Source: Erysipelotrichaceae bacterium (GTDB lineage Bacteria > Bacillota_I > Bacilli_A > Erysipelotrichales > Erysipelotrichaceae). Taken from it: a stretch of 64,000 nt of DNA. Location: NCBI GenBank assembly GCA_030528645.1, contig JAUMYM010000002.1:62001-126000 (forward strand), given 5' to 3'. Both the position numbers and the translations under genes were made by a program. How positions within the stretch are numbered: position 1 is the first letter of the stretch; every line of letters begins with the position of its first letter. This document shows positions 7,706 through 57,726 of this stretch, in pieces. The notes under the pieces are model-generated. The model was not told where the DNA came from, ran no database searches, and saw only the letters and a program-made list of their open reading frames with translations.

Positions 7706-7729
7706 AAAAAAAGTCCGAAGACCTTTTTT
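7706..7729. terminator. Bidirectional terminator hairpin downstream of nadE
   Basis: A GTC-CGAA-GAC core flanked by six A and six T, so it can act on either strand. On the minus strand it would end the pncB-nadD-nadE transcript before the HD gene promoter. Confidence 0.6.
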
Positions 7730-8618: not shown

Positions 8619-8627
8619 ACAAACTCC

Positions 8628-9206
8628 TTATTCCTGATATAGTTTATGTTCATAAATATAAGATGCCACTTCATTTGGAACATATTCTTCAATACTTTGC
8701 TTCATTTTACACAACTTACGCACTTGTTCACTTGAAATATCTTTATCAAAATCATTGACTAAATGGATACGCTCTTGATATTTCGCCAGTAATGGATCCG
8801 TTAGTACAATTTGTTTTAAATCTTCATTACGATTAAATACTAAAAGGTAATACGTCTTTAACAATTCTTCCGCTTGATACCAACGACTAATTTCCTTTAA
8901 ATTATCGGCACCTATCACCAACATTAATTCCTCATGATAAACATTCTTTAGAAATGTCAGTGTTTCGATGGTTTTATATTGGCGTGTACTATCCACTTCA
9001 ATTCTTGAAATCTTAAATTTAGGATTTTTTAACGCTCTTTTTAACATCTCAATACGATGCAAAGCGGATACTGTCAAACTAGTTTTATTATAATAATCTG
9101 AAACGGGAACAAAAATAACATCTTCTGCATACATCAAAGCTGTTGTGGCAACCTCTAAATGTCCATAGGTAACGGGATTAAATGACCCTACATAAACTGC
9201 CTTCAT
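8628..9206 (-). CDS. nadD: Nicotinate-nucleotide adenylyltransferase
   Basis: 192 residues. It converts nicotinate mononucleotide and ATP to nicotinic acid adenine dinucleotide. The nucleotidyltransferase signature GSFNPVTYGH (residues 7-16) carries the T/HxGH-type motif, and ISSEQVRKL near the C-terminus is the ISSTxIR-equivalent. The ATG overlaps the pncB stop by four bases (ATGA), implying translational coupling. Confidence 0.94.
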   Translation of the reverse strand: MKAVYVGSFNPVTYGHLEVATTALMYAEDVIFVPVSDYYNKTSLTVSALHRIEMLKRALKNPKFKISRIEVDSTRQYKTIETLTFLKNVYHEELMLVIGADNLKEISRWYQAEELLKTYYLLVFNRNEDLKQIVLTDPLLAKYQERIHLVNDFDKDISSEQVRKLCKMKQSIEEYVPNEVASYIYEHKLYQE

Positions 9207-10654: not shown

Positions 10655-10678
10655 CCCTCTATCTTATTTTACCATATT

Positions 10679-11365
10679 TTACTTTTTGATTTTTAAGCTT
10701 CGTAAATAATCCTTCTGTTGTTTACTTAAACGATAACTGTCAATCCCCTTGCTTATTGCTTTATTAATAATCCAAGGTTTCATAGTAGGATTAGTAAAAT
10801 ATGGTAAGGTACAATTCCACTGCTTGATTAATGCAATACTGAAATACCAAGCAATCATCATATCCAAATAATAATCATCGCTATTTAACTGACTAACTAA
10901 TCTCAAATGTTCTTCTTTAAAATGCTCATCTAGATAATTACTTAGTAATAAACCAATCGCAAATCGTTTGGTATAGACATGCTCACTCGTTAGCCACTTT
11001 AAAATACACGCATACACCTCATCGGGATATTTCTTAAAAATGTTAGGACGTAAAGAATCACACACCGCCCAATTATCAACATAAGGCAATAACTTATTGA
11101 CCTCCTTAAAAGCAATTTCTAAGTCTTTCTCTAAATTAATGATGTGAATATGTAGCATATATTCATCAAAATAAACGTGCGGTAAACTCTTTAAAAAATC
11201 AATCTTTGTCTTTTCATCCTTAGAAATCTCTTTAGCATAACGCTTAAGCATAGGACTGCGTACACCAATCATAGTAGAAACATCTACATTCGGAATTAAC
11301 TTAGCATTAAAATCACGATATGCAAGATCCTGCATCTTTTTAAGCTCTTTTTGTATCTTACTCAT
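10679..11365 (-). CDS. AlkD-like DNA alkylation repair protein
   Basis: 228 residues, all helical, matching the HEAT-like-repeat DNA glycosylase family (AlkC/AlkD). Family landmarks are VSTMIGVRSPMLKRYAKEI, DNWAVCDSLRP (the conserved DxWAxxD segment) and YLDMMIAWYFSIALIKQWN. Such proteins excise 3-methyladenine or 7-methylguanine by trapping extrahelical lesions. Its stop lies 24 bases before pncB with no terminator between, so it may be co-transcribed with the NAD genes. The ribosome binding site GGAGGG directly abuts the upstream terminator's U-tract. Confidence 0.85.
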   Translation of the reverse strand: MSKIQKELKKMQDLAYRDFNAKLIPNVDVSTMIGVRSPMLKRYAKEISKDEKTKIDFLKSLPHVYFDEYMLHIHIINLEKDLEIAFKEVNKLLPYVDNWAVCDSLRPNIFKKYPDEVYACILKWLTSEHVYTKRFAIGLLLSNYLDEHFKEEHLRLVSQLNSDDYYLDMMIAWYFSIALIKQWNCTLPYFTNPTMKPWIINKAISKGIDSYRLSKQQKDYLRSLKIKK

Positions 11366-11374
11366 ACACCCTCC

Positions 11375-11400
11375 AAAAAAGACAACGTTATTCGTTGTCT
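11375..11400 (-). terminator. Intrinsic terminator after the AAA ATPase gene
   Basis: Minus strand AGACAACG-AATAA-CGTTGTCT then T-run. It contains the ATPase stop codon, and the U-tract runs straight into the alkD ribosome binding site GGAGGG. Confidence 0.85.
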
Positions 11401-13382: not shown

Positions 13383-13384
13383 AA

Positions 13385-13942
13385 CTACCTCTTCAACTTC
13401 TTGTTCAATTCTTCTGCAATCTTATCAATCATATTCCATTTACTTTTCTTCAGTGCCAAACGCACATACAATAAGCCATCATAATAACCACCATCATATT
13501 GATAATGATTCTTTTTCCCCTTTGCACGTAAGATTTCATTTTCTAAGATCGGTTCTATGATTAACAAATTATCTTTATTTTGTTGTCCCTTATGATAATA
13601 CTTCTCTAAAGCAGCCATATGACCTTTACGATAAGGATCTTCTTGTCCACGCCCACGATAGTCCACATTACTAATATAATTAATAAAATAATCATAACGA
13701 GAATCAAACGTTAAATCACGATAACTCTTTAACACCATTGGACGAGATAACGGACGATAACTATACTTTTCATACTTAGAATCACGAAATAGCGTATATT
13801 CATCATTTTCATCTTTATTAAACACACGCCCAAAGGCCTTGGGATCAATATCTAACTTATCCTTAGCAAGATCATCATACAAAGCATCAAAAATATGTTC
13901 CACTTCATCTTTTATGCTATTTCTCTTATCGTTCATAATCAT
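13385..13942 (-). CDS. Uncharacterised protein between XpaC-like and AAA genes
   Basis: 185 residues, no family recognised. It is charged and Tyr-rich with no membrane segment. Visible features are an acidic N-terminus, SYRPLSRPMVLKSYRDLTFDSR in the middle, YRGRGQEDPYRKGHMAALEKY and a basic C-terminus ending KIAEELNKKLKR. The start overlaps the XpaC-like gene by 17 bases; the ATG two codons later is equally possible. The tight fit suggests it is a partner or adaptor of the neighbouring ATPase or membrane protein, but that is inference from position only. Confidence 0.7.
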   Translation of the reverse strand: MIMNDKRNSIKDEVEHIFDALYDDLAKDKLDIDPKAFGRVFNKDENDEYTLFRDSKYEKYSYRPLSRPMVLKSYRDLTFDSRYDYFINYISNVDYRGRGQEDPYRKGHMAALEKYYHKGQQNKDNLLIIEPILENEILRAKGKKNHYQYDGGYYDGLLYVRLALKKSKWNMIDKIAEELNKKLKR

Positions 13943-14828
13943 TACCTACTTTCAAAGTACCTTCATCAACCAAACCATCTTTCTTAAGTAAAGATTGTAA
14001 GGTCGTAATATCAGCAGACAAATGCATATAATCATCTTCATTTAAAGTACTAATAATATTCTTTAACGCCTCATTAATTAAAACAATCGTCTTAATTAAC
14101 TGTTCTTCACTCTTTAAATACTCCTGATTATTGACATCCCCTAACGACAATGATTTATATTTTTCTAAAATATCCACCAAAATAGGCATATAGTAACTAT
14201 ATAACTTCGTTAATTGTTCCTTACTATTTGGATCTTTTTGCTCAATCACTTCAATGTTTTTTAATAAAGAAGCTGTTTTATATAAACCATTTGAAATCTC
14301 TTCATGTTCAATTTCATTATTTAATTGATTGATACGATTCATATATAAAGTTGCACTAGGCTCTATGCGTTTCGGACTTTCTTGCACCTTCGGCTTTTCT
14401 TTCACTTCCTTATTTGCAAAATTCACTAATAAATCATAAATTTCCTGCGCAACACTTGGATAACTGCTTGCAAATTCATCTAAGGTTGCAATGCACTCCT
14501 CATTGTAATACATATTCAAATTCTTTAAATTTTCATAACTCCCTTTTAACGGACGCAAACTAATTCCATCAATAACAATCAAACGATCATTATCCGTAAA
14601 ATACTCCTTTAATTTATGATTAATCTGTTCTTCGTTTTTCTTGGTAAGTTTTATTTTATACTTATGATGACGTTTCTCCATCGCTGTTTGCTTCTGATCT
14701 TTTTTATTTGTAAAAAACAAGCTGATGATAAAACCTAAAAAGATAAAACTTATAAATCCAAACAAGCGTGTAAGGATTAAAAATATAATACCAATGATAA
14801 TTGGTGAAATTGCCCTTTTATTTTGCAT
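13926..14828 (-). CDS. XpaC-like (5-bromo-4-chloroindolyl phosphate hydrolysis family) membrane protein
   Basis: 300 residues. Two closely spaced hydrophobic segments at about 8-40 (AISPIIIGIIFLIL and FGFISFIFLGFIISLFF) are followed by a basic cytosolic stretch and a long helical domain. The C-terminal part (YYMPILVDILEKY, EEQLIKTIVLINEAL, ADITTLQSLLKKDGL) has the spacing and the final LLKxDGL signature of the XpaC/Halogen_Hydrol family. The family name comes from an old blue-colony phenotype; the molecular role is not known. In other Bacillota XpaC is often paired with TelA-type proteins, whereas here the partners are an unknown protein and a CbbX-like ATPase. Confidence 0.65.
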   Translation of the reverse strand: MQNKRAISPIIIGIIFLILTRLFGFISFIFLGFIISLFFTNKKDQKQTAMEKRHHKYKIKLTKKNEEQINHKLKEYFTDNDRLIVIDGISLRPLKGSYENLKNLNMYYNEECIATLDEFASSYPSVAQEIYDLLVNFANKEVKEKPKVQESPKRIEPSATLYMNRINQLNNEIEHEEISNGLYKTASLLKNIEVIEQKDPNSKEQLTKLYSYYMPILVDILEKYKSLSLGDVNNQEYLKSEEQLIKTIVLINEALKNIISTLNEDDYMHLSADITTLQSLLKKDGLVDEGTLKVGNDYER

Positions 14829-15256
14829 TATTGATGCCCCCTGAAAAATAATAACTTTCTAATTGTTGTAGAAACAAATGTTCCTAATGCCAAAGCTCCT
14901 GCCTTTGCTAAGGTATCAACACCTATTATTATAGCATTATCCGTACGATTTAAAATGACTTCCAACATCGTATAATACATACCACCACCTGGAACCAAAA
15001 GAATAAGAGCCACTAACATAAAACTGGTTACAGGAGTCTTTAACTTACGAGCCATAAGCTCACTGTACATCGCAATCACCATAGACGCCACAAGTAAGGA
15101 TAATACCGAAGAAAATCCTAGATACATAGTCCATTCATGGATAAAAGCCCCAATGCCTCCACCAAGACAGGCAAAGAATAATTTGTGCTGCTTTAAATTA
15201 AATAATACCCCAAAGCCCAACGATGCAAGCAAGGCGCCTAATATACGAATACTCAT
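14828..15256 (-). CDS. Threonine/serine exporter family protein, small subunit (ThrE_2/DUF3815-like)
   Basis: 142 residues from the ATG at 15254-15256, which overlaps the upstream stop as ATGA and has AGGAGGT nine bases before it; an upstream start at 15280 lacks this. About four to five membrane segments are present, with VPGGGMYYTMLEVI matching the conserved loop of the C-terminal half of ThrE. In many Bacillota the exporter is split into two genes, as here. The pair would export amino acids such as threonine or serine, with substrate inferred from the family. Confidence 0.85.
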   Translation of the reverse strand: MSIRILGALLASLGFGVLFNLKQHKLFFACLGGGIGAFIHEWTMYLGFSSVLSLLVASMVIAMYSELMARKLKTPVTSFMLVALILLVPGGGMYYTMLEVILNRTDNAIIIGVDTLAKAGALALGTFVSTTIRKLLFFRGHQ

Positions 15257-16014
15257 AAGCGACCTCCTAATCGTAACCAAATCGTTAAGGCAATCCCGGA
15301 ACCCAAGGCAACAAAAATCGCTATTAAGAACGCTTCAAAGCCACGTGTTGTTCCGGAAACCAAATCTCCGGATAAAAAATCCTTTATGGCATTGGTAATC
15401 GCTAGTCCCGGTACCAATAACATAATCGTACCAATAATTACTAGGTTATAGTCGACAACCAGATGATACTTATAGCCAAGCAAGGCAAAAAAAGTAATCA
15501 CAAACGATGTAATTGCAACACCGACAAAAGGATTTAACGCTTTTTTATTGATAAAACCATGTAGTGCCTGCACAAAACAACCAATTACAAAGGCTGCTAA
15601 GGCATCCAGTACTATGCCATTAAAAAACAAAGTAAACCCTAAGGCAACAAGTCCGGCACATAAAATCTCAATCCAAGCTGGATAAGTAGGTTGTTGAATG
15701 ATATGCTGTAAACGAGCTTCAAATTCATCAATAGAGAGTTTATCGGAATCACGTGATAATTGATTTAACAAATCAATACGCTGTAAATTAGCCTTACTAC
15801 GATTCACTCTCAATACTTTACTATAAGATCGCTCGTCATCCATACATGATGAAATAATGACTGTAGGAGAAGTAAAGGCACTTACTTCTTTCATACCATA
15901 ATTTTGTAAGATACGACAAATGGTATCTTCGACTCGATATGTTTCCCCACCACTTTCTAGCAAATAAAATCCTGTTAGGGTTGCTAAATGGAGGATACGA
16001 TCTTGTTTATTCAT
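15253..16014 (-). CDS. Threonine/serine exporter family protein, large subunit (ThrE/DUF1212)
   Basis: 253 residues. A soluble N-terminal domain has the family pattern LESGGETYRVEDTICRIL (residues 19-36), followed by about five membrane segments from residue 115, including NPFVGVAITSFVITF and LVPGLAITNAIKDFLSGDLVSG. This is the N-terminal half of the split ThrE exporter, with the partner encoded next by a 4-base overlap. It heads a five-gene string running through the XpaC-like, unknown and AAA genes. The promoter appears to be the extended -10 at 16033-16041. Confidence 0.88.
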   Translation of the reverse strand: MNKQDRILHLATLTGFYLLESGGETYRVEDTICRILQNYGMKEVSAFTSPTVIISSCMDDERSYSKVLRVNRSKANLQRIDLLNQLSRDSDKLSIDEFEARLQHIIQQPTYPAWIEILCAGLVALGFTLFFNGIVLDALAAFVIGCFVQALHGFINKKALNPFVGVAITSFVITFFALLGYKYHLVVDYNLVIIGTIMLLVPGLAITNAIKDFLSGDLVSGTTRGFEAFLIAIFVALGSGIALTIWLRLGGRL

Positions 16015-16032
16015 GTTCTACCTCGCCTTATA

Positions 16033-16041
16033 AGTATAGCA
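16033..16041 (-). promoter_or_regulatory. Extended -10 promoter of the thrE-AAA string
   Basis: TGCTATACT on the minus strand, divergent from the PII-like gene promoter; no clear -35. Confidence 0.5.
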
Positions 16042-16058
16042 TTTTTCATGGGTAAGTA

Positions 16059-16087
16059 TTGAAAAACTGTATTAAAAGTTTTATAGT
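16059..16087 (+). promoter_or_regulatory. Promoter of the PII-like / antiporter unit
   Basis: TTGAAA (16059-16064) and TATAGT (16082-16087), 17 bases apart, 24 bases before the PII-like start. Confidence 0.65.
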
Positions 16088-16111
16088 TTTTATTATTGGA
16101 GGGAAAACATT

Positions 16112-16462
16112 ATGAAATGTATGTTTATTATCTTAAACAATGTTGATAAGTTAGATGAATTATTAACTAAACTTGGAGATAATGGTATTCAAGGGGCTAC
16201 TATTTTAAACAGTACAGGTATGGCACATCACTTATTTAATGGTCATCGTAATGAAGCCGAACGTTTTATTGGATCATTACGCTTTCTATTAAATCCAGAA
16301 CGTGATGAAAATCGTACCATTATTTGTGTCTTAAAAGATGAACAAGTCTTATTGGCACGTGCTGCAATTCACGCTGTACTTGGTGATTTATCAAAACCGG
16401 ATACCGGAATTATTTTTACAATACCTTGCGATTACATCGAAGGTGGATGTTTTACCTATTAG
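16112..16462 (+). CDS. PII-like signalling protein linked to a CPA2 antiporter
   Basis: 116 residues. The pattern of two beta-alpha-beta units (MKCMFIILNNVDKLDELLTK, GIQGATILNSTGM, RTIICVLKDEQVLLARAAI, TGIIFTIPCDYIEGG) resembles the ferredoxin-like PII fold. The region where the T-loop would lie is a short HHLFNGHRNEAERF segment, so classic uridylylation is unlikely. The antiporter gene starts 15 bases downstream. PII-like proteins next to transporters commonly bind a nucleotide and gate the partner, and that is the inferred role here. The start has GGAGGG. Confidence 0.72.
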   Translation: MKCMFIILNNVDKLDELLTKLGDNGIQGATILNSTGMAHHLFNGHRNEAERFIGSLRFLLNPERDENRTIICVLKDEQVLLARAAIHAVLGDLSKPDTGIIFTIPCDYIEGGCFTY

Positions 16463-16477
16463 AAAGAAGGATTAATT

Positions 16478-31467: not shown

Positions 31468-34029
31468 ATGAAAACGATACTAACACCAACTTATTTACAA
31501 CAAGCATTCACACAAACATTATTAAAACAAACAAAAACTCCTTATCTCATTAACACCAACATTATAAGCTTAGAAGTTTTTTTAAGTAACTTTTTTCATA
31601 ATGAAGACACAAACAATTATGAATTAAGCCAATGCATTAAAGAAGTGAACGTTACTTTCTTTAAAAAAATGCTTTACTTTCAAAGTTTCATTGATGAAAT
31701 TATTTCTTTTACACGTCTTATTAAAAGTATGGATGTAGCACTGGAAGACTTGCCACAAGATACCTTAATGAATCAAGAACTCTATCGTTTGGTAGAAAGC
31801 ATCTATCATAAACCCCTTCTTCAAGATAACTACAAAGACTACCAAAAACGCTTGGATCATACTTTTCAAGAGGTAGAAATTCTATATCCAAGTCCTACCT
31901 TTCTACAAAAAAAGATCATTGATTTTTTGGTTGAAAAACAAGCAACCATACTTAAATTACAACAATATAAAACACCAAAAGAAAACCTGTATCACACCGT
32001 AAACACTCGCTATGAAGTAGAATGCATCGCTCAAGATATTATCAAACACAACTATCTGCTTCATGATGTAAATGTGATTATTACCGATACTCAATATCAA
32101 AACATCATCAAAGAAGTCTTTCATCGTTATCAATTGGATTATAGTTTTACTATTTTAAGACAAAAAGATATGGGAAGTTATCACTTAGCTAACCTATTAG
32201 AACTATATCAAACAAGAGATCTTACCACACTCCTTAAAATCTGCATGGATCAAACTTTAAAAACCAGCTCTTTTGTAATTACTTATATAAAAGACTATGT
32301 AAAAGACTTTGAAGATTGTTTTAAACCATTCATGCATTATCAAACCTTAAAACTTGAAACAACGTTATTTCCTTATGAAGATCTCATTGAATTAGAAAAA
32401 GAAGCAGAATTTTCCTTTGTTTGTTTCCGTAAAGATGTACTAAATATATTAAATAGTCCATCGTTTGAAGATGCGTTAACCGCAAGTTTTGAATATCTAA
32501 AAAAATATCATCCATTAAAACGTACCAAACAATTCATTGAACAACACTTAGAATTACTAAATCAACCGGAACAACTGATTCATCGTTTACACAATCATCA
32601 CTATCATCTTTATGAAGACTATTCAAATTGTATCTGTGTAACCGACTTAAATCATCCTGTCGATGCCAGAAAGATGAGTTATGTCATTGGTCTGGATCAA
32701 AACCACTATCCGGCTTATAAAGAATACAGTGGATACTTCAATGAAGAATACTTAGCTAAAACACCATTTATTGATAACCAACAACGCTATCAACTCCACA
32801 TGAAAAACCTCGAGTGGATTTTTCATAGTGGTCAATCCATTTATTACTTTTATCCAATGAGCTCTTATACCGGAAAAGCCATTGAACTTTCTTATCATAT
32901 TGAAACACGCATAAAAAAGAATCAAGAATATCCAATCATCCAAAACAACAATTCCCCGCTTTCCTTCCATTACCTTAACAAAGACACTGCCAAAGAACTC
33001 TTCTTTAAACAAGAAGAAGATAACCTCTATTTAGATGGAAGTATTTCTTCCTTTGAACAATACTTCCACTGTCCTTACAAATACTACTTAAATCAAGGAC
33101 TTAAACTCAAAGAAAGACAATATCTTCGTATTGATTCCAGCATCATCGGTACTATCCTACACTATGTGTTAGAACACTTAACAACCACTTATAAACAAAA
33201 ATATACCAAACACTTGGAACAAGCCTTTGTATTGGTTGAACAATGTTGTAGTGATTTAAAACAACTGCTTCCTAAAGATGATTATTTCATCCCTTACGTA
33301 CAACAACAAATAAATCATTTGCTTAAGAATGTCTTTCTGTTTTTAGATGCCTTTGAACAAACCTCAAAACTAATACCAAAGAAAGCAGAATATACCTTTG
33401 AAAACGTGGTCTTAAAACTGGAAAACGCTCATTTACGCTTAAGAGGTAAAATTGACCGTATTGACTATAACAGTTCTTTTTATCGTGTCATTGACTATAA
33501 ATCATCCAATTTAAAACTATCCCCTTCACTGGTACATGCCGGTTTACAATTACAATTATTAACTTATAGCTATATTCTATCGTTAAAAGACTATAGACAA
33601 GCATTTGGTAATTACTATTTAGCTCTTAATAAAAAAACATTTGAATATGTACCATATACTTATGGTAAGGATAAGGTTCAAAAAAATACGATGGAATATC
33701 CACCAAACTTTCAAAAGCATAAAGTCAGTGGTTTTACTTATGTTGATAAAAAACAATATGAACAAGAATGTTCACTCATTTCAACAAGTAAATATACATC
33801 CATGGACTTTGAAGTAATTAAATTTGCAATACCAACCATCTACCAATATCTCATTGACTCTTTATTAGATGGTGACATTGATGTGCGACCGGTAAACAAT
33901 GCTTGTACATATTGTCCATATAAGAGTATTTGTCGTCACTTTCAACCATCTGAAAAACCAAACCCAATATTCAAACAGGCCTTTATGATAAATAGCGAGG
34001 AGGAAGAGGAAGATATTTATGAAGTTTAA
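31468..34029 (+). CDS. addB: AddB/RexB-like nuclease subunit
   Basis: 853 residues from the ATG at 31468; the longer frame begins inside the upstream terminator. The N-terminal half is a helicase-like scaffold with no intact Walker A. The C-terminal half has the PD-(D/E)XK nuclease: LRGKIDRIDYNSSFYRVIDY then KSSN. Iron-sulphur cysteines appear at SFEQYFHCPYKYYL and CTYCPYKSIC. It is shorter than B. subtilis AddB (about 1,160). With AddA it resects double-strand breaks and degrades phage DNA. Its stop overlaps the addA start by 11 bases. There is no clear ribosome binding site, so it may be leaderless. Confidence 0.85.
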   Translation: MKTILTPTYLQQAFTQTLLKQTKTPYLINTNIISLEVFLSNFFHNEDTNNYELSQCIKEVNVTFFKKMLYFQSFIDEIISFTRLIKSMDVALEDLPQDTLMNQELYRLVESIYHKPLLQDNYKDYQKRLDHTFQEVEILYPSPTFLQKKIIDFLVEKQATILKLQQYKTPKENLYHTVNTRYEVECIAQDIIKHNYLLHDVNVIITDTQYQNIIKEVFHRYQLDYSFTILRQKDMGSYHLANLLELYQTRDLTTLLKICMDQTLKTSSFVITYIKDYVKDFEDCFKPFMHYQTLKLETTLFPYEDLIELEKEAEFSFVCFRKDVLNILNSPSFEDALTASFEYLKKYHPLKRTKQFIEQHLELLNQPEQLIHRLHNHHYHLYEDYSNCICVTDLNHPVDARKMSYVIGLDQNHYPAYKEYSGYFNEEYLAKTPFIDNQQRYQLHMKNLEWIFHSGQSIYYFYPMSSYTGKAIELSYHIETRIKKNQEYPIIQNNNSPLSFHYLNKDTAKELFFKQEEDNLYLDGSISSFEQYFHCPYKYYLNQGLKLKERQYLRIDSSIIGTILHYVLEHLTTTYKQKYTKHLEQAFVLVEQCCSDLKQLLPKDDYFIPYVQQQINHLLKNVFLFLDAFEQTSKLIPKKAEYTFENVVLKLENAHLRLRGKIDRIDYNSSFYRVIDYKSSNLKLSPSLVHAGLQLQLLTYSYILSLKDYRQAFGNYYLALNKKTFEYVPYTYGKDKVQKNTMEYPPNFQKHKVSGFTYVDKKQYEQECSLISTSKYTSMDFEVIKFAIPTIYQYLIDSLLDGDIDVRPVNNACTYCPYKSICRHFQPSEKPNPIFKQAFMINSEEEEEDIYEV

Positions 34030-37000
34030 TCAAGAACAACAAAAAGCCATTGAACTTACCAATAAAAATATCGTTGTTTCTGCTTCCGCCGGAGCTGGTA
34101 AAACAACCGTCTTAATTGGACGTTTAGAAAAACGTCTTTTCACCGATCACTTGTCACTGGATGAAATTGTAGCCGTAACCTTTACGGAAGCTGCTGCAAA
34201 CGAAATGAAAAAACGCTTATCCTATAAATTAAATGCTCGTAAAAAAGAAGCCAAAACCGAAGAAGAACTACAATTCTGTCATCAACAATTAATGTTGTTG
34301 GAAAATGCCAATATCTCAACCATTCATGCCTTTTGTTTAAACATCATAAAAAAACACTATGCTTCCATTAACATTGATCCTTCCAGTTTAAAACCATTAG
34401 AATCTCACGTTTTAAATAAACTGAAAGAAGAAGCCTTTTTAAAGGTTGTCAAAGATGAATTAACCTATAACGCTAATACTTTTATGGATCTTTGTAACTA
34501 CATGCAGTTAAATACACATCATCTAGAACCATTAAAAGAAGGCTTTGAAACGATTTTTAAAGTCAGTCGAAATACCTTAGATCCAATGGCATGGTATAAA
34601 AAAATCATCTATAAATATAAACCCATTTATAATATTCAAGAAATGGATTCCAGTATCATTGACCCTTACATCAACGACTTAAATACTGCCATAAAAAAAC
34701 TAGTCATAGAGCTTATCTGTTTACTAGATATTTTAAACAATTACAACGTTGATGTTAAAGATATAGAAACAAACCTGGAAGCTTTAAAAACATGTACCAT
34801 CCACCTTGATACTTACCAAAAAGATATCGACCAATTAACATTACACTTATCCTTTAAAGTTCCTACCGCAAGAGGAAAAGCCGACTATAAAAAACAAAGA
34901 GATATTGTAATGTGTATCATCAAAGACATTGTAGCTAGTATCCAAGATGAAGATATGATTGTCAAAATCTATAATACCAGCATTCCTTATAATCGTTATC
35001 TTACCTCTTTAGCACGCCTTGTAGATGATCACTATCAACACTTAAAACGACAAGCCAAAGGCATTGACTTTGATGATATGGAACACTTATGTTATAAAGT
35101 CTTAATTGCCAATAACTATCAAGTGAGCAACTACTACAAAAACAAATTCAAAGAAGTTATGGTCGATGAATTTCAAGATACTAACCACGTACAAGATGCC
35201 ATTATCAACCTTGTTGGAAACAACAATATCTTTCGTGTTGGGGATGTAAAGCAATCCATCTATAAATTCCGTGGTGCCAAACCAAGCATTATGCAAAGTT
35301 TACTCACAAGCGATGATATTGAACCAATCTTTATCCGAAACAATTATCGTTCGAATAAACGCATTGTAGACTTTAATAATCTATTATTTTCTCAACTACT
35401 CAACATTGATGGATTGTCCATCCAATACAATCAATTAGACTGCCAAATTGCAGAACTCCCTCAACAAGCAGCCAACCAAAAACCGGTGGAATTTCTACTG
35501 TTACAGAAAGAAAAAACACGTCATAGCTCGTTAGAGAAAAAAGAAAAAGAAGAAGAAAGCATTGAAAATAAAGAAGCTAAGATTTTCTTAATTATTAATA
35601 AAATAAAAGAAATTAAGGAACAAGACTATCAAACCTACCTATCATTAAAACAAGATTTAACGTTATTTGAACCAGATACAAAAGAATATCAATATCTACA
35701 AGATCATATCAACACGTTAAATTATCGTTGGAAAGACTTCTGTATTTTATTACGTGGGCATGCGGATAAAGCGTTGTTTAAACGACTATTTAAACACTAT
35801 AACATCCCATGTTACATCGATGAAAACAATGGTTATTTACAATGTGCCAGTGTCTTAACCATTATTAGTTATTTAAGAGTATTAGTAGATCCTACTGATG
35901 AAATTGCTCTTGTTTCTCTTTTAACTTCTCCACTCTACGATTATTCAGAAGATGACTTAGCAAAGATGAAGCATCGCAGTTTTTCCATTGATCGCTTTAG
36001 AAACGAACCCATCTATCAAGATTATCAATACTTAAAAGAACTGGTAAAAGAAAAAGATTTAGTGAAAGTCATTGGATATATACTATCAATCAATGATTAC
36101 TATAACGATGCATTAACTATCCAAGAAAAAAGTAATATCGATGTCCTACTATCTATGGCAAGTCAATACATCCATGATTCTATTTTTAACTTCTTAGCTT
36201 ACTTTGAAGAAGCCAGCAAAGAAAAAGGAGCCAGTGCAAGCTACATTAACAACGAAGATGATGTTGTAAATGTCATGACCATTCACCATTCAAAAGGACT
36301 ACAATTTGGATGTGTATTTCTATATAGCACAACCCAAAACACTAACTATGACATTATATCCAAAGTCCTTGTCGATGATGAACTGGGAGTTGCATTAAGT
36401 CACTATGATGAAAGCTATACATATAAAATGAATCATCTTTTACGAAGAGCCATCATACACCGTAGTAACCTTGAAGAATATCAAGAATATTTAAGAATAC
36501 TTTATGTTGCCCTAACACGAGCGAAACATCGCTTACTCATTGTAGATCTAATTGATAATGATATTGCATACTATCCACTAACCATGGACTTAATTCAAGC
36601 CAAAAAGGGTTTTACAACATTAATCTATCGAGGATTGCTAAGCACTACAGAAAAGACAAATACCATTAGTAAAGCTATTCTAGATAAAACCCCTTTAAAT
36701 GAACTCTGTAACATTACAATTATTGATAACATCGATTTTCCTGAAATAGGATATGAAGACACGGAAGATTACACAATCGAAAAGTATCCAATACAAGACA
36801 ATCAAAAAACACAACGTCTTGCTCCATCATCCCTTGATCAATTTGATTTAACCTTAAATCTCAAAGAACAAGTTGGCTTTAAAGTAGGTAGTATGATACA
36901 CAAAGCCATTGAATTACTTCCAAATCAAATCTATACAAAAGAGATGATTGATACTTTAAACTTTAATTTTACACCGACACAAATAGAAAAACTCATTCGT

Positions 37001-37294
37001 TTTTCAATGCATCCCATTACGAAAAGTACACACACAAAAACCATCATCAAAGAATTTCCATTTTATTGTAAATTAGAAGGCAATCTTATTCATGGTTATA
37101 TGGACTACATCGCTATTGGAGATACCATTACTTTAATCGATCATAAAACAGATAGTGATGTGACCAAAGAAATTTTATTGCAACGCTATCAAAGTCAAAT
37201 ACAAACATATAAAAAAGTCTTATTCATGATTTATAAAAAACCGGTAGAAAGTTATATCTATTCCTTCTACTTAGAAGAATTTATTGCTGTATAA
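34019..37294 (+). CDS. addA: AddA-like helicase-nuclease subunit
   Basis: 1091 residues. UvrD-type helicase motifs run from FNQEQQKAIELT and Walker A SASAGAGKTTVL (residues 21-32), through AVTFTEAAANEMKKRL, VDEFQDTNHVQD, GDVKQSIYKFRGAKPS and TIHHSKGLQFGCVFLYS, to LYVALTRAKHRLLIVD. A C-terminal PD-(D/E)XK nuclease carries GYMDYIAIGDTITLIDHKTD. It unwinds DNA ends and cuts with AddB until a Chi-type site. It ends at a perfect 15-bp terminator. Slightly shorter than the Bacillus enzyme (about 1,230). Confidence 0.92.
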   Translation: MKFNQEQQKAIELTNKNIVVSASAGAGKTTVLIGRLEKRLFTDHLSLDEIVAVTFTEAAANEMKKRLSYKLNARKKEAKTEEELQFCHQQLMLLENANISTIHAFCLNIIKKHYASINIDPSSLKPLESHVLNKLKEEAFLKVVKDELTYNANTFMDLCNYMQLNTHHLEPLKEGFETIFKVSRNTLDPMAWYKKIIYKYKPIYNIQEMDSSIIDPYINDLNTAIKKLVIELICLLDILNNYNVDVKDIETNLEALKTCTIHLDTYQKDIDQLTLHLSFKVPTARGKADYKKQRDIVMCIIKDIVASIQDEDMIVKIYNTSIPYNRYLTSLARLVDDHYQHLKRQAKGIDFDDMEHLCYKVLIANNYQVSNYYKNKFKEVMVDEFQDTNHVQDAIINLVGNNNIFRVGDVKQSIYKFRGAKPSIMQSLLTSDDIEPIFIRNNYRSNKRIVDFNNLLFSQLLNIDGLSIQYNQLDCQIAELPQQAANQKPVEFLLLQKEKTRHSSLEKKEKEEESIENKEAKIFLIINKIKEIKEQDYQTYLSLKQDLTLFEPDTKEYQYLQDHINTLNYRWKDFCILLRGHADKALFKRLFKHYNIPCYIDENNGYLQCASVLTIISYLRVLVDPTDEIALVSLLTSPLYDYSEDDLAKMKHRSFSIDRFRNEPIYQDYQYLKELVKEKDLVKVIGYILSINDYYNDALTIQEKSNIDVLLSMASQYIHDSIFNFLAYFEEASKEKGASASYINNEDDVVNVMTIHHSKGLQFGCVFLYSTTQNTNYDIISKVLVDDELGVALSHYDESYTYKMNHLLRRAIIHRSNLEEYQEYLRILYVALTRAKHRLLIVDLIDNDIAYYPLTMDLIQAKKGFTTLIYRGLLSTTEKTNTISKAILDKTPLNELCNITIIDNIDFPEIGYEDTEDYTIEKYPIQDNQKTQRLAPSSLDQFDLTLNLKEQVGFKVGSMIHKAIELLPNQIYTKEMIDTLNFNFTPTQIEKLIRFSMHPITKSTHTKTIIKEFPFYCKLEGNLIHGYMDYIAIGDTITLIDHKTDSDVTKEILLQRYQSQIQTYKKVLFMIYKKPVESYIYSFYLEEFIAV

Positions 37295-37330
37295 AAGAAA
37301 AACCAAGATCTGCGCATCTTGGTTTTTCTT
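37295..37330. terminator. Bidirectional terminator after addA
   Basis: AAGAAAAACCAAGAT-N6-ATCTTGGTTTTTCTT: a perfect 15-bp stem ending in A-runs and T-runs on both sides, so it can act in both directions. Confidence 0.92.
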
Positions 37331-37404
37331 GACAATAAGGGGAAGATTATATATACACATCTAATCAATCTGTAAGACATGCATATTGTTAGTTTTATCT
37401 AACT
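37295..37404 (-). ncRNA. Candidate small RNA (minus strand)
   Basis: A promoter with TTGACA and TATTGT 17 bases apart (37411-37439) points left into the gap. The transcript of about 110 nt would contain a hairpin GTTAG-N6-CTAAC (37388-37403) and would end at the bidirectional addA terminator. No ORF of note. Expression not shown. Confidence 0.4.
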
Positions 37405-37410
37405 TACATA

Positions 37411-37439
37411 ACAATAGCACACTTCTTTTTAAGTGTCAA
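37411..37439 (-). promoter_or_regulatory. Promoter of candidate minus-strand RNA
   Basis: Perfect TTGACA (37434-37439) and TATTGT (37411-37416), 17 bases apart on the minus strand, in a gap with no gene start. Confidence 0.5.
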
Positions 37440-37568
37440 CAAATATTATAAGCATTAAAGTTGACAAAAAAGAAATTCTATACTTTAAGATAAAAATACA
37501 AGTAAAAACAAAAAAATAGAAAAATTTTCTTATATGACACAATAGTCACTATTTTTTACCAAATTCAA

Positions 37569-37577
37569 TGTTACAAT
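37569..37577 (+). promoter_or_regulatory. Extended -10 promoter of candidate plus-strand RNA
   Basis: TGTTACAAT in the gap between addA and mgtE copy 2; -35 poor. A second candidate with TTGACA at 37461 lies further upstream. Confidence 0.35.
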
Positions 37578-37583
37578 AAAATT

Positions 37584-37876
37584 ACCAACAGAAGAATGAT
37601 ATGTTGGCTAAAATAAGACATCAAAATGCTACCAGTAATTTTACGTTTTAACTTTATGTACGTTGTTAGGGTAAGTCGACCATAAAGATAAAACTATACG
37701 GGATTATATGGTCAATGTAAGCTAGGTTATAATGGTAAATGCATTTCGAGCTCCTAGAATTCTTTATTAGATATCCCCCTCTATCCCTTCCCTAATAATA
37801 AATATCTAATAATTATACCTAACAACCATATACGATAGTCGACAAAAAAGTGCTAGCTCCCCTCTAGCACTTTTAT
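37584..37876 (+). ncRNA. Candidate structured small RNA (plus strand)
   Basis: No ORF. GTTGTTAGG (37662-37670) and CCTAACAAC (37818-37826) would close three internal arms: GACCATA/TATGGTC (37678-37713), CTAGG/CCTAG (37722-37757), and a perfect 11-bp stem TTATTAGATAT/ATATCTAATAA (37764-37812). The last arm has a pyrimidine loop containing CCCCCTCTATCCCTTCCC. C-rich loops with UCCC are used by Gram-positive regulatory RNAs to cover ribosome binding sites. It ends at the terminator 37846-37880. Convergent genes on both sides leave no mRNA leader to explain the structure. Start site estimated. Confidence 0.45.
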
Positions 37877-37880
37877 TTTT
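37846..37880. terminator. Bidirectional terminator before mgtE copy 2 stop
   Basis: AAAAGTGCTAG-N7-CTAGCACTTTT with A/T tracts on both sides. It serves mgtE copy 2 on the minus strand and the candidate RNA on the plus strand. Confidence 0.88.
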
Positions 37881-39252
37881 ATATTAAACGATGAATGATC
37901 AAGGTTGCCAAACCTAGAAAGATAAAAAACCCTAAGACATCGGTAGCCGTGGTTACAAAAACCGCACTTGCCAATGCCGGATCTACCTTAAATGCCTTTA
38001 ATGTTAAAGGAACCAATACCCCAACCACACCTGCAATCACCAGATTAGCAATCATAGATGCAAAAATAATAAATCCTAAATATACATTACCATACATGAA
38101 ATAAAGGATAATTCCTGCAAATAAACCAATAATCGCCCCATTAATAATCCCTAATAGAGCTTTTTTAAAGATTAATGTCCAATTCTCCTGTAAACTTGCC
38201 TCACCTAGCGCAATGCTTCTTACAATAATCGATAATTCTTGAGATCCAGCATTACCACCCATACCCGCAACAATTGGCATCGCTGCAGCTAAGGCTGTAA
38301 CCTTATCAATGGTTCCTTCAAATAAAGAAACGGTAAAAGAAGCTAAAAACGCAGTAACTAGGTTAACCATTAACCAAGGCAAACGCATCTTAATCGAATC
38401 CTTAATAGGCGAATAAATCGTTTCTTCTACACTTGTCCCAGCTAAGTGTGACATATCCTCTTGATACTCTTCTACGATAACATCGATAATGTCATCAACG
38501 GTAATAATCCCCAATAACGAATTACGCTTATTGACAACCGGTATAACACGCAAGTCATATTTCGATACTAACAGTGATACTTTTTCTTGATCCGTTTCCG
38601 GAGTAACAGAAATAATATTTTCATTCATAATATGTTGCAGTGACTCTTGATAAGGAGCCACTAAAATATCACGAAGATCAACACTACCAATTAATTCTTT
38701 TTTATGATTGATTACAAAAATCGTATCAATGACTTCACTCTTTAACGCAAGTTCTTTAATCTTATTAATGGTCTGTTGAATCGTTAAGGAATCAGAAACT
38801 GCCACATACTCAGTTGTCATAATTCCCCCGGCAGTACGTTCATCATAGCCTAAGAGTTCTTGAATAATCTTCTTATCGCCGCTTTTCATTAAATTGATTA
38901 ATTCTTTACGCTTATTTAACGGCAAGATCCCTAAAATATCTACAATATCATCCTTAGACATATACTCAAAAACACCCATTGTTCTAGAAGCATCTAATAA
39001 AGTAATCATTGTAATCTGTAAGTCTTCATCCGCTTGCTCAATGATTTCAGCAATCTGCTCATCATTTAACTTACTATAGATATACGTTAAATCTTCATCA
39101 TCACTATCTTCTAAAGCAATCGCAATATCAATCGGATGCATTTGCTCAACAATATCTTTTAACTTTTCATTATCTTGTTTCTCGATAGCTACTTCTAAGG
39201 CCTTTTCATGTTCTATCTCTTTTTCTTCAAATTCTTTTACTTCGTTATCCAT
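37879..39252 (-). CDS. mgtE: Magnesium transporter MgtE (copy 2)
   Basis: 457 residues with the same layout as copy 1. An acidic N-terminal region (EEKEIEHEKALEVAIEKQD) precedes the superhelical domain, two CBS domains (GIMTTEYVAVSDSLTIQQ and VIPVVNKRNSLLGIITVDDIIDVI), then five membrane helices with AAAMPIVAGMGGNAGSQELS as pore signature and KVDPALASAVFVTTATDVLG. It is divergent in sequence from copy 1 and has no leader ORF or attenuator upstream, only an extended -10 at 39277-39285. The two copies may differ in regulation or ion preference. Confidence 0.96.
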   Translation of the reverse strand: MDNEVKEFEEKEIEHEKALEVAIEKQDNEKLKDIVEQMHPIDIAIALEDSDDEDLTYIYSKLNDEQIAEIIEQADEDLQITMITLLDASRTMGVFEYMSKDDIVDILGILPLNKRKELINLMKSGDKKIIQELLGYDERTAGGIMTTEYVAVSDSLTIQQTINKIKELALKSEVIDTIFVINHKKELIGSVDLRDILVAPYQESLQHIMNENIISVTPETDQEKVSLLVSKYDLRVIPVVNKRNSLLGIITVDDIIDVIVEEYQEDMSHLAGTSVEETIYSPIKDSIKMRLPWLMVNLVTAFLASFTVSLFEGTIDKVTALAAAMPIVAGMGGNAGSQELSIIVRSIALGEASLQENWTLIFKKALLGIINGAIIGLFAGIILYFMYGNVYLGFIIFASMIANLVIAGVVGVLVPLTLKAFKVDPALASAVFVTTATDVLGFFIFLGLATLIIHRLI

Positions 39253-39276
39253 AGCTACCTCCTAAATATCATAGAA

Positions 39277-39285
39277 ATTTTAACA
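39277..39285 (-). promoter_or_regulatory. Extended -10 promoter of mgtE copy 2
   Basis: TGTTAAAAT on the minus strand, 24 bases before the start; -35 poor. Confidence 0.4.
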
Positions 39286-39342
39286 TAGAAATAAGTACGA
39301 AAGAAATAGAATACATCAAGAATACTAAAAAAGTTTTTCCGA

Positions 39343-39448
39343 TTCATTTTATATTCATTTAACTATTCTAAGATATAGTTGCAAAGGAAGAGAAGAACAA
39401 AAAAAATTCTTTGCAAACCATCAATGTCGATTCATTTAGCATTCATTT
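39343..39448 (+). promoter_or_regulatory. Paired direct repeats upstream of pepSY gene (response-regulator boxes)
   Basis: TTCATTT occurs twice 11 bases apart at 39343-39360 and again twice 11 bases apart at 39431-39448. Eleven-base spacing of direct repeats is typical of OmpR/PhoB-family regulator dimers, and such a regulator is encoded just downstream at 40364. Confidence 0.6.
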
Positions 39449-39504
39449 AGCAATGTTAATCTCAAGACACAAATAAATATTTGAAAGAAAAGGAGAACAC
39501 AAAT

Positions 39505-40278
39505 ATGAAAAAATTTATTCTATCTGGCGTTATCGCCACAGCAGCCGTAGCAGTACTAGCAGGTTCAACAATCTATGCACATAAAACAAACTCAACTTAT
39601 CCAACACAAATTACAACTACCCTAACAGCACAAGATGCTTCAAACATTGCTTTAAAACAAGCCAACGGTGGTAAAGTTGTAAGAGTAGAATTTGAATATG
39701 AACACAATGTAGCAAAATACGAAGTAAAAGTAATTAACGGAAACACAGAATTTGAATTTGACATTGATGCAAATACAGGGGCAATCCTAAAGAATGAGCA
39801 AGAAACAAAATTTGTTAAACCGACTCAACCGGCAGTGAAGCCTACACAACCAACAAAACCAACACAACCTGTAAAACCGACACAACCAACAAAACCTCAA
39901 GTAAAACCTCAGCCGGTACAACCAACTCAACCTGCACCAGCTGCAACACAATTAACTTGGGAACAAGCAAAAGCAGTCATTACAAATAACTTTAATAACG
40001 CAAGAATCACAAGTATGGATTTAGATTATGAACACGGTGTATTAGTATATGATGTTGATGTAATCGAAAACAACGTGAAAAAAGATGTAAAAATTGATGC
40101 CCACACTGGCGCAATTCTTCAAAATCACATTGATGATGACCACTATGATGTAGACGATCAATACGATGATTACTACGACGATGATCGCTTTGAAGTAGAT
40201 TATGATGATGATCGCTACGATGACTGGGATGATCAATGGGACGATGACGACGATGATGACGATCGTTACGATGACTAA
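39505..40278 (+). CDS. Exported PepSY-domain protein with acidic tail
   Basis: 257 residues from the ATG at 39505 with AAAGGAG upstream; a longer TTG frame is spurious. An N-terminal signal or anchor (MKKFILSGVIATAAVAVLAG) is followed by two PepSY domains (about 40-100 and 150-205: LTAQDASNIALKQANGGKV and LTWEQAKAVITNNF). They are joined by a linker of repeated KPTQP. The C-terminus is about 50 residues dominated by Asp and Tyr. No LPxTG motif. PepSY domains often modulate surface proteases or bind cations. The acidic tail suggests metal or cationic-peptide binding. The adjacent two-component system probably controls it. Confidence 0.85.
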   Translation: MKKFILSGVIATAAVAVLAGSTIYAHKTNSTYPTQITTTLTAQDASNIALKQANGGKVVRVEFEYEHNVAKYEVKVINGNTEFEFDIDANTGAILKNEQETKFVKPTQPAVKPTQPTKPTQPVKPTQPTKPQVKPQPVQPTQPAPAATQLTWEQAKAVITNNFNNARITSMDLDYEHGVLVYDVDVIENNVKKDVKIDAHTGAILQNHIDDDHYDVDDQYDDYYDDDRFEVDYDDDRYDDWDDQWDDDDDDDDRYDD

Positions 40279-50995: not shown

Positions 50996-51913
50996 TTAGA
51001 TATTTTCTCTTAGAAACAGTGGTTTATCCACTAACGCAAAGGCTTCTTGCACACTTGAAACCTGACTATTAAACAATTGATTAAACAATTCATAATCATG
51101 AATACGTGCCATTGTATAACCAAATACTTCACCTTCCATGTTAAATACACGGTCTAATTGTTCATGCTTAGAAACCACTAATTCCACCTTAGGTTTTACT
51201 TTTAAAGCTAATGATAAAATCTTATACAATGTTTTTAAATCTAAATAAATAAGTTCTTCTATTAATACATGTTGTTCAAATTGTTGCAAGATACCATAAC
51301 CCTTCATCAATCCCTTTTCATATACACAAACGATTTGACTATTGGTAGCCTTACACTGCAATTCAAGTTGTTTAAAATAGGAATAATCACGAATCATAAA
51401 TCCATGAAAACGTTTGGCAAACTTCGCATACACCTTTAACATATCTTCATAATGAATCGCTGTTGTAACACCTTTTAAATCAATGGATTTAATATGTTGT
51501 TGAGTTAGGATATATCGCTTACGATAATACACCATCTCAAAACCAAAAGGCTTATACAATTCCGGATTATATGCCTGAATAAACGTAATCAATTCTTGGC
51601 TTGCCAAATGGTCTAACATCGTTTCTAAAATCGCACGCATATATCCCTTATGACGATACTCTTCAAGGGTAGCTAGACCAACAATCATAGATGCTTGTAT
51701 AAAACGATGATTTAACTTATACACATGTTTATGAAAGGAACCAATTGAAACAACCTTTTGGTCTTCTTTTATGATATACGTTGTAAATGGATTAAAATGA
51801 TGCTTAAAGTAATAATCCGTAAACCCAAAATCATCAAACGAAAAGACATCTTTCCATATCTGATAAATCTCTTTTGCATCTTCACTTTGTGATCTTATCA
51901 CATTCACAAACAT
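50996..51913 (-). CDS. Eis-like GNAT N-acetyltransferase
   Basis: 305 residues. An N-terminal GNAT domain has ASMIVGLATLEEYRHKGYMRAI (acetyl-CoA loop EYRHKGYMR) and YNPELYKPFGFEMVYYRK, typical of the Eis/YitI-like family. A second, degenerate GNAT-like part follows. Such enzymes acetylate amines, including aminoglycosides in Eis, but the substrate here is unknown. The start has AGGGGGG and overlaps the DUF2156 gene by 32 bases. Confidence 0.82.
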   Translation of the reverse strand: MFVNVIRSQSEDAKEIYQIWKDVFSFDDFGFTDYYFKHHFNPFTTYIIKEDQKVVSIGSFHKHVYKLNHRFIQASMIVGLATLEEYRHKGYMRAILETMLDHLASQELITFIQAYNPELYKPFGFEMVYYRKRYILTQQHIKSIDLKGVTTAIHYEDMLKVYAKFAKRFHGFMIRDYSYFKQLELQCKATNSQIVCVYEKGLMKGYGILQQFEQHVLIEELIYLDLKTLYKILSLALKVKPKVELVVSKHEQLDRVFNMEGEVFGYTMARIHDYELFNQLFNSQVSSVQEAFALVDKPLFLRENI

Positions 51914-54964: not shown

Positions 54965-55817
54965 GCTTAAATTCCTTTACATCACGATGATCTTTATAAC
55001 AGTTATACGTCTTACTATATAATTTATAAAGATAATTAGTGATTGTTACCGAACGATGTTGTCCTCCGGTACATCCAATCGCTACTGTAAAATGATTTTT
55101 TCCTTCTTTAACATATTGATGAAATGCATAATCCAAAAAGTCTTGTAACTTAACAATAAATTCTTGGGTAACAGGATCTTCCATAACATAGTTATAGACA
55201 CTTTCATCATTACCTGAATACATTCTTAAATCTAAATCCCAATATGGATTTTTTAGAAAACGAACATCAATCATTAAATCCGCATCCAAAGGAACTCCAT
55301 GTTTATATCCAAACGATAAAAAGCTAATCGTAAAAACAGGGGTTGTTGATAATGCGAATATCTTTTCAATTTTAGACTTTAAAATTGATGCGGTTAATAA
55401 CGTTGTATCAATTACCACACTACTTTGATCCTTTTTGGTATTAAAATCACTTCGTTCAATACTAATTGCTTCTTCTAAAGTATTACTTACATTACTAATT
55501 AACAATGGATGTGTACGACGTGTTGATTTATAACGATGCAATAAGACTTCATTGCTTGCATCTAAGAATAAGACACGTACATCTAATTCACTGCCATTAA
55601 AGGCACGATAAAAATCATTAAAATCGGTAAGTGATGTCGCTAGGGCAACATTGTTGTATCTAGGATCACTGCTATTTTCAATTAAATCGACTAATAACGA
55701 TAATAACTGTACCGGATATTGATCAATAATGTGGTATCCCATATCTTCTAAGATAGAAGAAGCTAAGGTTTTCCCAGCACCAGACATTCCACTAACTAAA
55801 ACTACTTTTTTTAACAT
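54954..55817 (-). CDS. rapZ: RapZ/YvcJ nucleotide-binding protein
   Basis: 287 residues. Walker A GMSGAGKTLAS (residues 9-19) and the C-terminal IGCTGGQHRSVTI segment, conserved in RapZ/YvcJ, are present, with RTHPL and FLSFGYKHGVPLDADLMIDV. In E. coli RapZ binds small RNAs controlling glmS; in Bacillus YvcJ hydrolyses GTP and affects competence, and the RNA role is less certain. It heads the rapZ-yvcK-whiA operon with a promoter at 55837-55865. Confidence 0.95.
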   Translation of the reverse strand: MLKKVVLVSGMSGAGKTLASSILEDMGYHIIDQYPVQLLSLLVDLIENSSDPRYNNVALATSLTDFNDFYRAFNGSELDVRVLFLDASNEVLLHRYKSTRRTHPLLISNVSNTLEEAISIERSDFNTKKDQSSVVIDTTLLTASILKSKIEKIFALSTTPVFTISFLSFGYKHGVPLDADLMIDVRFLKNPYWDLDLRMYSGNDESVYNYVMEDPVTQEFIVKLQDFLDYAFHQYVKEGKNHFTVAIGCTGGQHRSVTITNYLYKLYSKTYNCYKDHRDVKEFKHEK

Positions 55818-55836
55818 AACATTCCACCTTTAGTAA

Positions 55837-55865
55837 ATTGTACCACGCTTGTTGGTGTGCCACAA
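55837..55865 (-). promoter_or_regulatory. rapZ operon promoter
   Basis: TTGTGG (55860-55865) and TACAAT (55837-55842) on the minus strand, 17 bases apart. Confidence 0.6.
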
Positions 55866-56073
55866 TAGGCATACATTATACTACGAAATTGTGAAAGATA
55901 GGTAAAATGCATAGAAATTTGTTATGAAGACAAATAAAGGTAAACCAATCAAAAATTACTATTATCAAAATAATACACTCCTTTTTCTGTATGCCTTAAC
56001 AATTTATCTGTATTGATTATCTTCACACATATAGCAAGACATTGACTATTATTACCTTTCTACTTTCATATGT
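55866..56073. other. Intergenic region upstream of rapZ
   Basis: Mostly unexplained. On the minus strand a 30-codon frame (55876-55968) begins with TTG after AAAGGAGT and reads MIIVIFDWFTFICL then HNKFLCILPIF; it is hydrophobic and could be a small peptide or chance. A TATAAT lies near 55873. No gene is claimed. Confidence 0.3.
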
Positions 56074-56106
56074 AAAAAAGAAGCATCCGTTATTTACTTC
56101 TGCTTC
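56074..56106 (-). terminator. Terminator of the PPase-like gene
   Basis: GAAGCA...TGCTTC with a 15-base loop, then TTTTTT on the minus strand. Confidence 0.7.
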
Positions 56107-56159
56107 CTATTTAGTGCTCTTATTTAACTGTTTTACTTCGACAAACTAAGATTTGAGCA

Positions 56160-56483
56160 TTACATTTCAATATGACTCTTGAAATATTTCTCTTGAAATC
56201 TAACAGCTTCTTCAATTTGTTCTACTGTAAATTTTATTCCTATTGGAGCAACAACCCATTTTTCCTCAATGTCATCTTCTCTTTTGATGACAGCGATCAC
56301 TTCTCCTTCATATTCACCTATCGCTTCATTGATCCCAAGTATATACACATCTTGTTCTTCTCCATCAGCAGCGATTATTCCTTCAACATAACCATAATTT
56401 ATTGGATAAATTTGTTCTGGATAATCAGGATGGAAACTGCCAAGTGGACGATCTACTTTAACTTTTACAATTTTACCAATCAT
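56160..56483 (-). CDS. Short inorganic-pyrophosphatase-like protein
   Basis: 107 residues, much shorter than family I pyrophosphatases (about 170-180). It keeps YPINYGYVEGIIAADGEEQD, equivalent to the family core NYGYIPxTxxxDGDPxD, then WVVAPIGIKFT and VRFQEKYF. The acidic metal set DGDxxD is DGEEQD, so one Asp is Glu. This small branch occurs in several Bacillota; hydrolase activity is plausible but not assured. The start has GGAAGGGA. Confidence 0.75.
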   Translation of the reverse strand: MIGKIVKVKVDRPLGSFHPDYPEQIYPINYGYVEGIIAADGEEQDVYILGINEAIGEYEGEVIAVIKREDDIEEKWVVAPIGIKFTVEQIEEAVRFQEKYFKSHIEM

Positions 56484-56577
56484 ATTGTCCCTTCCTACAA
56501 CTCCCGGTTTATCTATACTTACAAATTTTAATTTGCTAAACTGCTTTCAAAATTGTTCATCCATGTTACCACAAAAA

Positions 56578-57021: not shown

Positions 57022-57146
57022 ATGCTATAATTATCCTTTTTTTGCAATATTATATGTTTAATCGAGTCTATGCAGTATATGGACGTAGCTACACTCTCTA
57101 ATTTATCTTTATTTTTCATCTTCCATACCTTTAAGACAAAGAACAT
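57018..57146 (-). CDS. Possible 42-residue peptide coupled to the next gene
   Basis: Begins MFFVLKVWKM and ends IILQKKDNYSI. The start has only AGGG nearby. Its stop overlaps the ATG of the membrane-anchored gene (ATGA), which favours a real, coupled ORF. Too short to assign. Confidence 0.25.
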   Translation of the reverse strand: MFFVLKVWKMKNKDKLESVATSIYCIDSIKHIILQKKDNYSI

Positions 57147-57172
57147 CCCTATCTTTAAACATCTATACAGTA

Positions 57173-57703
57173 TTATTTTTCTCTCATGTTATTTAAAATA
57201 AGATCAACATCTTTGATATAATCATACTTTGTATTTCTACCTTGATATAGTGCAAGAATATTAGATTGTTTAGGATCCTTATCTTGGAAAAGATAAATAC
57301 CAACCTTTACCTTTTGTCCTTCTATAACACCATCAATAGAAGCATACATCACTTTTACACCATGGAATTGCTTTGATTTTAGTTCTGTTACCTTATGTTT
57401 ATCCATAACAGTAACAAAACCTTCAACAAATTCTTTCATGACAGTTTCATTCACTTCCAATTCATCTAATAGTTCTGTGGCAATCTGTAACATCGCAAAA
57501 CGATCTACCGGCGTTGTTTCCATAAAAAAGAAATTCTCATCCTTTTCCCATTGTGTAGGAATATCAATTTCATAACTACCTAGCTCATAAGGCATAGTTT
57601 CTACCGCACTTAAATCTTTGATAGAACCTTCTTTCTTTTCTTTAGCACAAGCCGCTAAACCAAATATGACAGCCATTACGATGACTGCTTTAATAATTTT
57701 CAT
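57173..57703 (-). CDS. Small lipoprotein
   Basis: 176 residues from the ATG at 57701-57703 with AAGGAGA upstream; the longer frame overlaps the peptidase gene. The signal MKIIKAVIVMAVIFGL ends in lipobox LAAC (Cys19). The mature part has SYEIDIPTQWEKDENFFFME, a PsbP-like or lipoprotein beta fold seen in many Bacillota surface lipoproteins of unknown function. It is downstream of the M20 peptidase by 23 bases. Confidence 0.75.
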   Translation of the reverse strand: MKIIKAVIVMAVIFGLAACAKEKKEGSIKDLSAVETMPYELGSYEIDIPTQWEKDENFFFMETTPVDRFAMLQIATELLDELEVNETVMKEFVEGFVTVMDKHKVTELKSKQFHGVKVMYASIDGVIEGQKVKVGIYLFQDKDPKQSNILALYQGRNTKYDYIKDVDLILNNMREK

Positions 57704-57726
57704 AATGTCTCCTTTTCCATCAACAA

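Follow-up and report, generated by a model that had tools for sequence, protein, structure and literature searches.

A candidate C-rich small RNA gene between addA and mgtE in Erysipelotrichaceae

The intergenic region between addA and the second copy of mgtE in a 1.38 Mb genome of the Erysipelotrichaceae most likely contains a small regulatory RNA gene, whose C-rich loop would be suited to the blocking of ribosome binding sites. The candidate is located at 37584-37880 on the plus strand of the analysed window, a stretch of 64,000 nucleotides, measures about 290-297 nt from its predicted start to the end of its terminator, and is present in one copy per genome. The element is real and probably functional, and we consider it fairly probable that it represents a plus-strand small RNA gene of about 290 nt with C-rich loops pairing with Shine-Dalgarno (SD) regions. 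Regarding the structured C-rich RNA proposed in the preliminary description of this DNA, a plus-strand small RNA gene constitutes the best reading, as the element, its terminator and its extended -10 are all kept in a sister genome, but the closed four-helix fold proved not to be robust.

The 5' border of the gap is formed by addA (34019-37294, plus strand), which is convergent with mgtE copy 2 (37879-39252, minus strand). Between the 3' ends of both genes lie exactly 584 bases (37295-37878), as had been described. The remaining gaps of the window are mostly below about 170 bases, with exceptions of 760 (55818-56577), 400 (19088-19487) and 228 bases (39253-39480). The earlier remark on an unusual size holds with respect to the 584 bases as such, but gene content accounts for part of this size, since the sister genome carries a feo operon that the window genome lacks. 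Inside the candidate element, neither strand of the window sequence has an open frame of at least 20 amino acids. Beyond mgtE, the 228-base gap is followed by a gene for a PepSY-domain protein with a long Asp-rich tail (39481-40278), which is situated directly upstream of a two-component system.

The start of transcription would be set close to 37584 by an extended -10 promoter, TGTTACAAT, which is present at 37569-37577 on the plus strand as previously reported, is identical in the sister genome and occurs in one copy per strand in the window, while a good -35 upstream of it is lacking. The block that is nearly identical in both genomes starts at 37562, at this very element, with a first identical run of 72 bases (37562-37633). 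Moreover, a palindrome ATGAC-N6-GTCAC (37534-37549), likewise identical in the sister genome, has its centre some 42 bases ahead of the predicted start and recurs nowhere else in either genome with up to two mismatches. Class-II activators bind centred about 42 bases before the transcription start, and by its position the palindrome is a possible class-II activator site. A Fur-like site was not apparent by eye in the candidate promoter region (37530-37583).

At the opposite end, the transcript would terminate at an intrinsic terminator (37846-37880, plus strand; hairpin 37846-37874 and T-run). The strong terminator claimed to follow the last arm was found independently at 37846-37874, and the stretch 37846-37875 is identical in the sister genome (30/30). 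Read on the minus strand, the hairpin likewise has the form of a terminator, for mgtE, which would use it from the opposite side, and the structure is probably shared by both transcription units.

Two C-rich loops would stand unpaired in the predicted RNA, the larger on an 11-bp arm and the smaller (CTCCCCT) in the terminator hairpin, with predicted unpaired probabilities of 0.99-1.0 in both species and with sequences identical in both. The large loop (37775-37801) had been described as an 18-base pyrimidine loop; a C-rich 18-mer indeed exists there, but the loop actually comprises 27 nt, and its first 18 bases, CCCCCTCTATCCCTTCCC, consist of 12 C, 5 T and one A and are therefore not purely pyrimidine, the loop as a whole including several A. 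Apart from this one (37775-37792), no 18-mer of the window, whichever strand is read, contains at least 12 C.

The four helices of 9, 7, 5 and 11 bp named earlier all exist, and the best RNAfold structure of 37584-37880 includes them nested as drawn. The closing helix (37662-37670/37818-37826, spanning 37662-37826) encompasses 9 bp in the window, 7 of which are kept in the sister genome. It encloses arm 1 (37678-37713), with a 7-bp stem (37678-37684/37707-37713) that is unchanged in the sister genome while its loop varies; arm 2 (37722-37757), with an unchanged 5-bp stem (37722-37726/37753-37757); and arm 3 (37764-37812), with the 11-bp stem (37764-37774/37802-37812), the 27-nt loop and 49 of 49 bases identical. 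As a closed arrangement, this fold stands only in part: arm 1, arm 3 and the terminator are favoured in the ensembles of both species, but the closing helix is two pairs shorter in the sister, and this helix, arm 2 and an outer pairing are favoured in the window and fall to near zero in the ensemble of the sister. The outer, long-range pairing (37602-37608/37838-37844) competes with a 5' hairpin CCAACA/TGTTGG (37585-37607), the former being preferred in the window genome and the latter in the sister genome.

Fold energy was dropped as proof of structure, since its signal vanishes once the terminator is removed: compared with shuffled sequences, z amounts to -2.12 (window) and -3.56 (sister) with the terminator and to an ordinary -0.32 and -1.64 without it. 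The helix content alone does not exceed chance, whereas conservation in the sister genome and C-richness do. Covariation argues neither for nor against the fold, because only two sequences are at hand and no base pair varies between them. On the other hand, none of the 17 changed core columns falls within the 60 paired columns (30 pairs; hypergeometric 3.6e-4), and only 2 of 169 circular shifts, counting the true position, perform equally well. This avoidance of helices lends no more than moderate support to the fold, since the closing helix entered the test with 7 pairs, a choice made after the sister sequence had been viewed, and adjacent changes are not independent. A compensatory reading of an alternative helix (37645-37658/37681-37694) was set aside, as it rests on an A-U to U-G change adjoining a mismatch.

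The sister genome, Erysipelotrichaceae bacterium OH741_COT-311, is the sole genome of the same genus that was compared; COT numbers denote canine oral taxa, and the MgtE proteins of both organisms are 97% identical. As the preliminary description had put the matter to close relatives, this one retains the element, in one copy and in the same place 3' of mgtE, with 87% identity over 37387-37880. Identity reaches about 90% (90.5%) over 37584-37845, 97% over 37564-37660 and 100% over 37764-37812 and 37846-37875, and amounts to only 68-72% in the stretch just upstream (37471-37530); third codon positions are identical at 66% in mgtE, 68% in glmU, 74% in prs and 84% in addA. Nevertheless, the other alignable intergenic gaps are mostly 87-96% identical too, and conservation on its own should hence be read with caution, as it is not unique to the addA–mgtE gap. 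Long identical runs occur between both genomes, which suggests recombination. The window is uneven in this respect: positions 988-17757 and 57100-64000 are 97-98% identical to the sister genome and the middle part 84-92%, which suggests recombination or uneven constraint. In the 760-base gap at 55818-56577, between the chosen genes, only 169 bases align to the sister genome, and the gap adjoins a 348-base run (55630-55977) that is identical in both species.

Beyond these two genomes, no counterpart was encountered. The assertion that the element belongs to no Rfam family is borne out, the window at the gathering threshold and the region 37295-37890 at E values up to 10 both being devoid of a match; in particular, no covariance model of RsaE/RoxS, FsrA or other Rfam sRNA families matched at the gap. 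6S RNA (RF00013) was ruled out, the genome's own 6S being encoded elsewhere (C27:88567-88741). Among 244 family genomes searched with a sequence model, only the two genus members matched, the rest scoring at most 17 bits, and no related element was found in the other 242. A structure model applied to 41 relatives likewise returned nothing credible beyond the two genus members: a 24-bit match in one relative (G002) was rejected for its position in a CRISPR-like repeat array, as was a second match in the window's own genome, which overlaps coding frames. The flanks of the next MgtE relatives (L051, L052) did not match the element, a distant DNA search in phages yielded chance pieces only, and the C-rich core was absent from viral contigs. 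As far as these searches reach, the element appears to be genus-restricted.

The comparison of both genomes suggests a history of the gap. In the sister genome, two feoA genes, feoB and a small FeoB-associated Cys-rich gene (an assignment below the Pfam cut-off) lie between the element and addA, while the window genome lacks feoB. A remnant feo promoter persists on the minus strand of the same gap, outside the RNA (37388-37439; TTGACA at 37439-37434, TATTGT at 37416-37411), together with an operator-like palindrome GTTAG-N6-CTAAC (37388-37403, minus strand) about 180 bases upstream of the candidate RNA; corresponding promoter and palindrome elements are situated directly upstream of feoA in the sister genome. 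Over the addA terminator side (37310-37355) both genomes agree at every position (100%), 31 unmatched bases follow, and similarity is back at 37387, inside the feo promoter region. Because the alignment breaks and resumes there, the gap can be understood as the candidate RNA plus a feo control region whose genes are absent. Of a loss here and an insertion in the sister genome, a deletion seems the more natural, because a promoter without its gene was left behind. Transcription from this orphan promoter would cover about 80-110 bases and run into the addA terminator, which reads both ways. In the window genome, the palindrome GTTAG-N6-CTAAC also precedes (L094, 1501-1516) a gene that by eye resembles an ECF-type transporter component, and the site is present in the sister genome as well (L091); this gene is a possible second member of a feo regulon, though the reversed control pattern is about as frequent, so that chance may account for both sites.

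This putative history gives rise to an alternative explanation without any separate RNA, according to which the stretch merely combines the regulatory upstream flank of the minus-strand feo operon with the shared mgtE terminator, as a leftover of feo loss. The position between mgtE and feoA in the sister genome, and the retention of the feo promoter and operator-like palindrome in a genome lacking feoB, agree with it. A functionless relic, however, would drift toward the 66% of silent sites, and the best conserved part is the one farthest away, 130-440 bases upstream of the feo -35, with the nearer stretch only 68-85% identical; we deem this explanation unlikely. An action on the minus strand, in the form of an extended 3' region of the mgtE mRNA in which the C-rich loop, G-rich on that strand, might bind a protein or serve as a sponge, draws on a terminator that by sequence works on both strands and on similar folding energies of the minus strand. 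Yet this terminator directly follows mgtE, placing the stretch beyond it, and the extended -10, itself conserved, borders the conserved block and belongs to the plus strand, which renders this possibility very doubtful. The least credible alternative holds that the RNA encodes a 19-residue peptide (37626-37685, MLPVILRFNFMYVVRVSRP), either as a short mRNA or in a dual function: frame, start and stop are kept in the sister genome with two V/I exchanges, but no SD sequence precedes the frame, three of the four substitutions alter a residue and only one occupies a third position, unlike in the genes here, and the conservation of the remaining element would go unexplained.

A small RNA gene remains the preferred interpretation, and its best reading is a genus-restricted, trans-acting C-rich sRNA that would resemble RsaE/RoxS, FsrA or IsrR in action while being a member of none. 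RoxS measures roughly 110-115 nt. The candidate, at about 290 nt, is longer and without an Rfam match at E 10, but shares with RsaE/RoxS of staphylococci and bacilli the small RNA format with C-rich regions. RNAIII encodes delta-haemolysin, whereas the candidate has neither a convincing coding region nor an Rfam match; the likeness to RNAIII and the Rsa RNAs of Staphylococcus aureus lies in C-rich hairpin loops of the UCCC type, which in these RNAs pair with ribosome binding sites (PMC3861533). Several regions of RoxS are likewise C-rich, and one or more of them pair with a ribosome binding site (PMC4409812). FsrA of Bacillus subtilis, an iron-related RNA, binds SD sequences through a C-rich motif (PMC9410917); the candidate is also C-rich but differs in having no Rfam match and no Fur box visible by eye at its promoter, its iron link existing only via the feo operon adjoining it in the sister genome. 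Further parallels concern staphylococcal IsrR, which is restricted to its genus, is conserved throughout it and features C-rich loops on stem-loops that pair with ribosome binding sites, an intrinsic terminator and conserved stems with little covariation (PMC9410917), but which measures 174 nt, carries two Fur boxes, not visible in the candidate, and shows no detectable sequence relation to it.

A C-rich loop is an established hallmark of Gram-positive sRNAs (PMC3861533, PMC9410917, PMC4409812), and an unpaired C-rich region in a hairpin loop, as in the trans-acting members of this class, is predicted for the candidate. Because the anatomy is the same, the candidate most likely works as these RNAs do: its C-rich loops would pair in trans with G-rich SD regions of mRNAs and thereby block translation, as with the staphylococcal and bacillar C-rich sRNAs. 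G-rich stretches are rare outside SD sequences in an AT-rich genome (PMC9410917). Analogy makes the earlier proposal of pairing with ribosome binding sites plausible, but no target scan rose above chance. A search with the full loop returned nothing convincing; the best pairing with a start region of the window (RNAduplex) concerned a GNAT-family gene (50996-51913, -25.1 kcal/mol), a value reached by 6 of 100 shuffled loops; and matches to a 13-base pattern were, genome-wide, close in number to the reversed control and mostly within coding frames. The one pattern site near a start codon that is common to both species, at rplK-rplA, could well be due to chance.

For the organism, a link to metal supply, suggested by the adjacent feo promoter in the sister genome, is a reasonable first guess and no more. 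A more elaborate scheme would define a new C-rich sRNA family of an oral Erysipelotrichaceae genus, arranged back to back with feo as a metal-supply regulatory pair, kept after feo loss and switching between the 5' hairpin and the long-range closing helix; taken as a whole, it appears quite unlikely. Judging from the feo comparison, the gene of a regulatory RNA may survive the loss of a neighbouring operon. The best-known C-rich RNAs directed against ribosome binding sites are those of Bacillus, Staphylococcus and Listeria, and a limited literature search found no small regulatory RNAs in Erysipelotrichia. If confirmed, the candidate would extend this strategy to a separate lineage of Firmicutes and provide a simple, testable case of it.
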